Shown: one piece after another, positions 27,438 through 28,579 of the stretch
Numbering within the stretch: the first letter of the stretch is position 1
How the letters are laid out: each line of letters opens with the position of its first letter
NCBI GenBank assembly: GCA_016903655.1
Contig: JADQBC010000025.1
Coordinates: 1-35,950, forward strand
Reading direction: 5' to 3'
Length of the DNA stretch: 35,950 nucleotides
From: Gomphosphaeria aponina SAG 52.96 = DSM 107014
Lineage (GTDB): Bacteria; Cyanobacteriota; Cyanobacteriia; Cyanobacteriales; Gomphosphaeriaceae
Position numbers and translations under genes: made by a program
The notes under the pieces: model-generated
The model's database searches: none
Told to the model about the DNA's origin: nothing
Seen by the model: the letters and a program-made list of their open reading frames with translations, nothing else

Positions 27438-27688
27438 TTGCTACAGAGATTTCTAAATTTTTGCCCTAATAGTAGCTTCTGCTCTATTCTAGCATCATGA
27501 GTGAGATTTTGCTGGCAGCCAAACTCTCTTGAGATAATTTGGGATGGAAAAACTTTATTCATTTTTTGAACAATTTTTGACAAGTATCCTCAAACATGGA
27601 CACAAGCAGAGGACTTCACATCGTACCCAAGCTCAGTTATAATAGAAAATGTCTGGGCATAGACAGGTCTGCCATTTAGCTAGTTATT

Positions 27689-27744
27689 GTGCAAGCAAAA
27701 ACCTCACTAAAGTTTAGTAAACTTTAGCAAACCTTCACTTGCAC
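27689..27744. promoter_or_regulatory. Nested palindrome (operator or transposon-end hairpin)
   Basis: The outer arms GTGCAAG (27689-27695) and CTTGCAC (27738-27744) are complementary. Inside them CTAAAGTTTA (27707-27716) and TAAACTTTAG (27718-27727) form a perfect 10-bp inverted repeat with one central base. It lies about 30 bp before the structured RNA at 27777. It could be the left-end hairpin of an IS200/IS605-like element or a repressor operator. Confidence 0.55.
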
Positions 27745-27776
27745 CAGATCATTTAACGTTATTTTGGTCATAACAC

Positions 27777-27950
27777 CTACAGGTGCCAGCTTGCTGGCTT
27801 GTAGCTCTGTTGCTAATAGTTAAACAGGTTAGAAGCTAAGGTTTTTTAAGCCAGTGCTACAGCGACAAAGCTATAATAACCGAGCGAGGCTTACTTTAAC
27901 CTGTTTATCGGAGTTTTCAGTATCGGGATGCTCCCGCAAGAAGTTTTAAT
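27777..27950 (+). ncRNA. Structured RNA with pseudoknot, IscB omega-RNA (HEARO)-like
   Basis: Three nested or crossing pairings are visible. A 5' hairpin is CTACA (27777-27781) with TGTAG (27800-27804), enclosing GCCAGC-TT-GCTGGC. A long-range helix pairs TAAACAGGTTA (27821-27831) with TAACCTGTTTA (27897-27907), 11 perfect pairs. TAGCTCTGTTGC (27802-27813) pairs with GCGACAAAGCTA (27862-27873), 10 Watson-Crick pairs plus one G-U and one mismatch; this crosses the long helix, making a pseudoknot. A 3' hairpin CGGGA-TGC-TCCCG (27924-27936) is followed by CAAGAAG. The layout and the 3' segment recall HEARO/omega RNAs, which lie directly upstream of iscB with the guide on their 5' side. No iscB follows; antitoxin remnants do. 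The structure is well supported; the family name is from memory. Confidence 0.55.
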
Positions 27951-27962
27951 TGATGTAAAAAA

Positions 27963-28040
27963 AAAAGACCTGAAATTGCTGAAAGTATTATTGAAGCTGA
28001 AGCTGAATATAAAAGAGGTAAAGTTTTTTTGATAGTTTAG
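27963..28040 (+). pseudogene. Antitoxin-like fragment
   Basis: A reading frame without a start gives KRPEIAESIIEAEAEYKRGK and then a stop at 28038. It looks like the C-terminal part of a small antitoxin-type protein. It begins directly after the structured RNA, where an iscB start would be expected, so sequence was probably replaced here by deletion. The family is uncertain. Confidence 0.35.
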
Positions 28041-28109
28041 CTCAACTATAAAAAACTTGAAAAAATGAGCATTTTAGTTTGATAGTTAAACTAGCTTTTC
28101 AAACTAAAA
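28032..28109. promoter_or_regulatory. Clustered palindromes, toxin-antitoxin operator-like
   Basis: ATAGTT (28032-28037) and AACTAT (28044-28049) form one inverted repeat. TTTTAGTTTG (28072-28081) and CAAACTAAAA (28100-28109) form a perfect 10-bp one enclosing TAGTT-A-AACTA. The shared half-site TAGTT recurs, as in operators bound by ribbon-helix-helix antitoxins, and a CopG/ParD-like fragment starts at 28179. Confidence 0.4.
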
Positions 28110-28178
28110 TTTGAAATTAAACAAAATACTGATTATAAATTATAAATATTAAGGAAATTAGGCACAACTAGATAGGTT

Positions 28179-28273
28179 ATGAATATAGTATTATCACCTA
28201 AACTTGAGCAATTAATTCAAGAAAAAGTAAAGAAGCATTATTACTCCTAGAAAAACGAGAGCTGATAAATTAG
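28179..28273 (+). pseudogene. Broken CopG/ParD-like antitoxin gene
   Basis: An ATG at 28179 after AGG starts MNIVLSPKLEQLIQEKVK, a typical ribbon-helix-helix antitoxin N-terminus. The reading then shifts: the next frame continues EALLLLEKRELIN and stops at 28271. An intact family member would have about a dozen more residues between the parts, so a deletion with frameshift destroyed the gene. Confidence 0.6.
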
Positions 28274-28305
28274 CTGGACATGGAAAGAAATAAAAGAGGG
28301 TAAAG

Positions 28306-28431
28306 TTAGACGAATTTCGCCAATTATGGGAAGGAGAGGAAACAACTGATTTAAAAAGTCCTCAACCTCATTTACATCCAGAAGGAATTTCCATTAGTAA
28401 AGATGCTGATGAACCATTATTATTTACTTAA
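28306..28431 (+). pseudogene. C-terminal fragment of a second small protein
   Basis: An open frame without a start gives LDEFRQLWEGEETTDLKSPQ, then HLHPEGISISKDADEPLLFT and a stop at 28429. The frame just before it is broken by stops. It looks like the intact 3' end of a small gene, perhaps an antitoxin, but I do not recognise the family. Confidence 0.4.
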
Positions 28432-28579
28432 AGTTTGTAGGGTGCCTTAGGCGGATACTTAACAAAAAATTCAATAACCCCACCGAAATTTGAGCCGTAA
28501 CGAACCACCATAACAAAAATCTAAAAACCATCAAATTATTATTAAAAATATAATTCTTTGATAAAGAGGAGAAGTTTTT

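Follow-up and report, generated by a model that had tools for sequence, protein, structure and literature searches.

The locus described here lies within a stretch of 35,950 nt (hereafter the window) of contig C31, in a genome assembly of 3.67 Mb and 146 contigs that is 76% complete. In a permissive Rfam search, its forward strand was aligned over the full length of the HEARO model (RF02033, the IscB omega RNA), while the second-ranked match in the region scored 20.6 bits. No family was found at or above its gathering score in the window. For RF02033 that threshold is 83 bits, against 64.8 bits for the window copy and 69.4 bits for the best of the sister copies discussed below. When the Rfam structure is placed on the window sequence, 51 of its 67 pairs are formed, 9 are mismatched and 7 are gapped. 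Five of the seven gapped pairs belong to one hairpin that is absent from all five copies in this genome, which partly explains the low score of even the best copy. With 51 of the 60 testable pairs formed, the RNA is clearly derived from the HEARO family, although a score below the cut-off leads us to file it as a decayed descendant and not as a typical member. An earlier note on this DNA had named the family correctly, and the covariance model agrees with it along its full length (E 9e-13) but below the gathering score. The interval assigned there to the scaffold, 27777-27950, omits the 5' third of the RNA and takes in 28 bases of unrelated flank; as the match begins at 27689, the scaffold starts 88 bases further to the left, and the unit actually extends from 27689 to 27922. 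The features are collected in Table 1.

Table 1. Features of the omega RNA locus in the window, and sister copies in the same genome
Feature	Position	Strand	Basis or remark
Promoter-like site TTCACA-17-TATAAT, 11/12 matches	27615..27643	+	Consensus match, not proof; transcript would start near 27650
Guide position, the 16 host bases adjoining the scaffold on its 5' side	27673..27688	+	Left end from five copies with unrelated flanks; PMC9640706
Element remnant: left end and omega RNA, stopping one base before the iscB ATG position of the sisters	27689..27922	+	Shared with C127, C8
Omega RNA (HEARO) match, model 1-211	27689..27899	+	Rfam RF02033, 64.8 bits, E 9.2e-13
Guide adaptor hairpin, its outer stem perfectly paired over 7 bp (27689-27695 with 27738-27744)	27689..27744	+	Pair tally; single-sequence folding agrees
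Left-end palindrome CTAAAGTTTAGTAAACTTTAG, probable transposase recognition hairpin	27707..27727	+	Sequence; similar GTTTAGTAAAC at right ends of C127, C8, C134a
Nexus stem, 5' strand (partner 27881-27885)	27747..27751	+	Pair tally, copy comparison; A27748 faces G27884, C-G in sisters
Central stem, 5' strand (partner 27870-27880), 10/11 pairs	27758..27768	+	Weakened by window-only changes 27872, 27874; overlaps earlier supposed guide
Stem loop with nexus pseudoknot loop 27791-27795	27777..27804	+	Alignment; inverted repeat GCCAGC-TT-GCTGGC at 27785-27798 in window
Conserved hairpin with GUUAAACAG and CAGUGC motifs	27812..27863	+	Rfam match, alignment
Nexus pseudoknot, 3' strand (GGCTT)	27888..27892	+	Alignment
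Terminal hairpin before iscB	27900..27911	+	Copy comparison; CCG/CGG stem of sisters broken by T at 27902
Sister copy	C127:2609-2841		DNA search, 94% identity
Sister copy	C8:8349-8584		DNA search, 89% identity
Sister copy	C134:47911-48088		DNA search, 91% identity
Sister copy, two pieces	C134:22027-22337		DNA search, 91% and 95% identity

A DNA search of the genome recovered four further copies, every one of which starts at the base matching 27689. The left flanks of the five copies are mutually unrelated; from this and the common start, the left boundary of a mobile unit can be set at 27689. The copies on contigs C127 and C8 share with the window exactly the stretch 27689-27922. In both, the shared stretch (ending in TTTCAGTA) runs directly into ATGAGCAATTTTGTATTTGTTCTCGATT or a near-identical form, the start of iscB, encoding MSNFVFVLDS, which resembles the IscB N-termini of relatives (VFVLDTNKQ.., VFVLDKNKQ..). 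Next in C127 come the end of IscB (GSGETTKYNRT*LGLEKTHWLDAACVG, NF040563 positions 289-314) and then the remainder of the C-terminal region. C8 retains the beginning of IscB together with a short piece of its C-terminus, and in one of the C134 copies (C134a) a truncated omega RNA is joined to the IscB C-terminal region. Because they retain these C-terminal pieces, the three copies are recognizable as internally deleted elements. They also have a right end in common (GTTTAGTAAACTA...GCACCTC), whose palindrome resembles the one at the left end. The remaining observation on these copies concerns C134:22027-22337 (L005, reverse strand), where the omega RNA is split by an insert that has inverted ends (GACAAAATTA..TAATTTTGTC) and lies between direct repeats of TTAAACAGGTG; the insert is probably another small element.

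The full-length match, even below the gathering score, and the sister copies that run into iscB remnants support identifying the window feature as an IscB omega RNA by descent, one that now stands without iscB. The remnant ends at 27922, the last base before the ATG position, and neither an IscB C-terminus nor the common right end occurs in the window between 27923 and 30000, in agreement with the statement in the earlier note that no iscB follows. The same note had read CAAGAAG as a tail of the RNA. That motif belongs to a hairpin, CGGGATGCTCCCG, which adjoins the remnant and occurs only once in the genome, and 27923-27950 lies outside the unit. We also considered 27924-27944 as a right end of the element and rejected it, as the sequence is unique and the other copies end differently. 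The window copy is like the iscB elements of the ISC (IS200/IS605) group in having a left-end palindrome and an omega RNA, and its sisters add iscB remnants, a right-end palindrome and insertion among unrelated flanks; it differs from them in having neither iscB nor a right end, only the left end being present. In this genome the AT-rich palindrome sits inside the first stem-loop of the omega RNA, while in the alignment the relatives have a GC-rich CCCC..CTAAAG..GGGG hairpin at that place. The putative transposase recognition hairpin and the guide adaptor hairpin would seem, then, to share sequence.

The earlier note had suggested that an IscB encoded elsewhere might serve this RNA. No IscB was found in the assembly at E 1e-30, although at 76% completeness an intact IscB may be absent from the data. 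Those weaker hits that were examined were general HNH proteins; the hit on C41 proved to be a small stand-alone HNH protein, and that on C79 a broken HNH fragment.

Compared with the family, the window copy retains the full-length alignment, the guide adaptor hairpin, nexus stem, central stem and stem loops, the motifs ACGTT, GCTCTG, GTTAAACAG, CAGTGC and GAGGC, and a guide position on the 5' side. It departs from the family in its sub-gathering score, a damaged pseudoknot loop and nexus stem, the lack of iscB downstream and, in common with all copies of this genome, the one missing hairpin. We examined covariation in an alignment of 23 sequences, namely the window, C127, C8 and, from relatives, 20 omega RNAs. 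Pairs were counted only from the central stem on, since the three copies from this genome align poorly to the relatives in their 5' third. Bases 27791-27795, in the loop of stem loop 27777-27804, pair across with bases just 3' of the nexus stem (27888-27892), and by its position this covarying helix is the nexus pseudoknot. Here 88.2% of cells are paired, both-sided changes occur at four of the five pairs, and the covariation score is 0.439 against 0.166 +/- 0.034 for shuffles (0 of 500 as high); sliding the register lowers paired cells to 19-47%. Typical exchanges are CGCT/AGCG, AGCT/AGCT, TGCT/AGCA, TGCC/GGCA and TTTCC/GGAAA. The earlier note had described a crossing helix of 12 positions, too vaguely for it to be identified. 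A conserved crossing helix exists, but only three of its five pairs are left in the window copy, one of them a G-U, with a loop that has become self-complementary. Mutation of the nexus pseudoknot has been reported to abolish IscB activity (PMC9640706).

The 11-bp perfect long-range helix of the earlier note is indeed present (TAAACAGGTTA at 27821-27831 with TAACCTGTTTA at 27897-27907), but it is not conserved. In the 23 sequences its paired cells amount to 36.8%, while shuffles average 35.7% and 109 of 500 of them reach as high, and slid registers pair equally well; we therefore rejected it as a conserved feature of omega RNAs. The helix owes its perfection in the window solely to a T at 27902, a position occupied by C in the sister copies. 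The region folds moderately better than shuffles (z = -1.68, 8 of 200, for 27770-27950; z = -2.27, 3 of 200, for the whole unit).

The positions at which the window departs from all other copies in the genome bear on its condition. At 27748 a C-G pair of the nexus stem becomes A-G; in the central stem, 27872 turns G-C into G-U and 27874 turns U-G into U-U; and the change at 27902 breaks the terminal CCG/CGG hairpin. Changes at 27789, 27791 and 27796, with one inserted base, make a perfect inverted repeat of the pseudoknot loop, a rearrangement suggestive of template switching at a quasi-palindrome. None of the window-only substitutions is compensatory, and all those in paired positions weaken their pairs. 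The numbers are small, but the pattern is the one expected from loss of selection.

In IscB omega RNAs, according to published work (PMC9640706), the guide directly precedes the scaffold, and the left end at 27689 therefore places the guide slot at about 27673-27688. The 27755-27776 segment favored in the earlier note is mostly central stem. That the left flanks of the copies differ is expected if the guide is taken from DNA to the left of the element; the relatives compared included no second genome of this family in which an empty site might be seen. We searched for a target of this guide elsewhere in the genome, but no site came closer than two mismatches, with 7 such sites against 6 for a reversed control pattern. 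The promoter-like site, in the same orientation as the omega RNA, is separated from the left end by 45 bases. Neither strand of the window has another 11/12 site, and the left 100 bases of the other copies contain none. It could be a chance match or an older host promoter.

Taking these observations together, the locus is the left part of a former element, in a cyanobacterium, that carried the gene for IscB, a nuclease ancestral to Cas9; it most likely survives as a decaying omega RNA relic, immobile and with no partner IscB. The ancestor was an ISC insertion element of the IS200/IS605 group; its palindromic left end formed part of the folded omega RNA, iscB came next, and a similar palindrome marked the right end. 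By analogy with published IscB work, a transcript initiated in the flank would have carried, ahead of the scaffold, a guide of some 16 flanking bases, and would have directed IscB to the corresponding site in element-free DNA. The window copy has lost everything from the iscB start codon onward, and pairing in its scaffold has since been lost in the nexus stem, central stem, terminal hairpin and pseudoknot loop. The element is now most likely inactive. Four points count against this relic reading: the match is below the Rfam gathering score, the argument for decay rests on few window-specific changes, there is a strong promoter-like site just upstream, and an assembly 76% complete may lack an intact IscB that the cell has.

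The earlier note had left the choice between a relic and a stand-alone guide RNA. The latter would be transcribed from the flanking promoter, would be served by an IscB encoded on a mobile element or in the quarter of the genome that the assembly lacks, and would address targets like 27673-27688. We consider this unlikely, if worth weighing. The promoter-like site and the fact that most of the scaffold still pairs are in its favor, as are reports, cited in PMC9581776, that stand-alone omega RNAs work with IscB in trans. Such RNAs resemble the window copy in having no adjoining iscB; the window copy differs in that its assembly yields no IscB and its scaffold carries pair-breaking changes. The window-specific weakening of the nexus stem, central stem, terminal hairpin and pseudoknot loop, combined with the failure to find IscB, leads us to favor the relic, and the guide has no close genomic target beyond chance. 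A narrower proposal, that the host transcribes an omega RNA kept after the loss of iscB, with the rearranged pseudoknot loop as a working variant serving an IscB elsewhere, seems to us more doubtful still.

It is improbable that the locus is a mobile miniature element, moved by a transposase in trans and keeping the omega RNA only as its left end. Genes for Y1 transposases are present in the genome, the unit exists in multiple copies, and both-ended copies of miniature type seem to be present in relatives. The window copy lacks a right end, however, and the deletion differs in each copy of the genome, so the deleted forms did not multiply; no other copy there has the same 27922 junction. An unrelated structured RNA or chance structure, to which the sub-gathering score, the unconserved 11-bp helix and the modest advantage in folding energy over shuffles might point, is refuted by the iscB remnants beside the sister copies (two of the four adjoin an iscB start) and by the E-value of the full-length match, and we give it almost no credence.

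That a solitary omega RNA would be new in kind is not supported, such RNAs being common and known. For 60 relatives, 150 HEARO matches were listed; an IscB match follows 57 of them within 150 bases, 85 have none at that distance, which counts in favor of a stand-alone guide, and the other 8 are situated at contig edges. Several near-complete genomes have omega RNAs yet no IscB at E 1e-30, for example G051, with 15 omega RNAs. As it stands, the locus is a useful correction to annotation and a recognizable but ordinary genomic relic. The genome shows how an IscB element decays, its five copies differing in where iscB is cut: the omega RNA is full-length in three of the five, and in the window copy it carries pair-breaking changes. 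An active window RNA, by contrast, would amount to a naturally occurring guide RNA that acts in trans and takes its guide from the host.

Close relatives of the window RNA subfamily were not found at E 1e-12 in 391 genomes of the order (two candidates per genome being scored), nor in viral contigs. One solitary match is on a metagenome-assembled contig of Oscillatoria sp. Prado101 (L056:3150-3420, reverse strand), an omega-RNA-like sequence (GCTCTGTTGCTTGTGGTTAAACAG) with no iscB in its 4.3 kb. Behind many of the stand-alone omega RNAs in relatives, some 10-20 bases 3' of the RNA, the place of iscB is taken by a conserved module of roughly 100 non-coding bases (..GCGTACAGGGTTG..CGGTAACTGTCCCG..GAAAGTAC..) (L075:1731-1830, L070:1742-1823, L068:1-83 and others). 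It is present in 6 of the 60 relatives, from 5 genera, with 15 occurrences in G051, and the omega RNA with this module looks like a dedicated family of non-autonomous omega RNA elements. Within the window, 27950-28440 contains short broken reading frames (..RPEIAESIIEAEAEYKRGKVF.., MNIVLSPKLEQLIQEKVK..) that by eye look like decayed genes of antitoxin type, and the whole intergenic stretch gives the impression of being littered with dead mobile or toxin-antitoxin genes.
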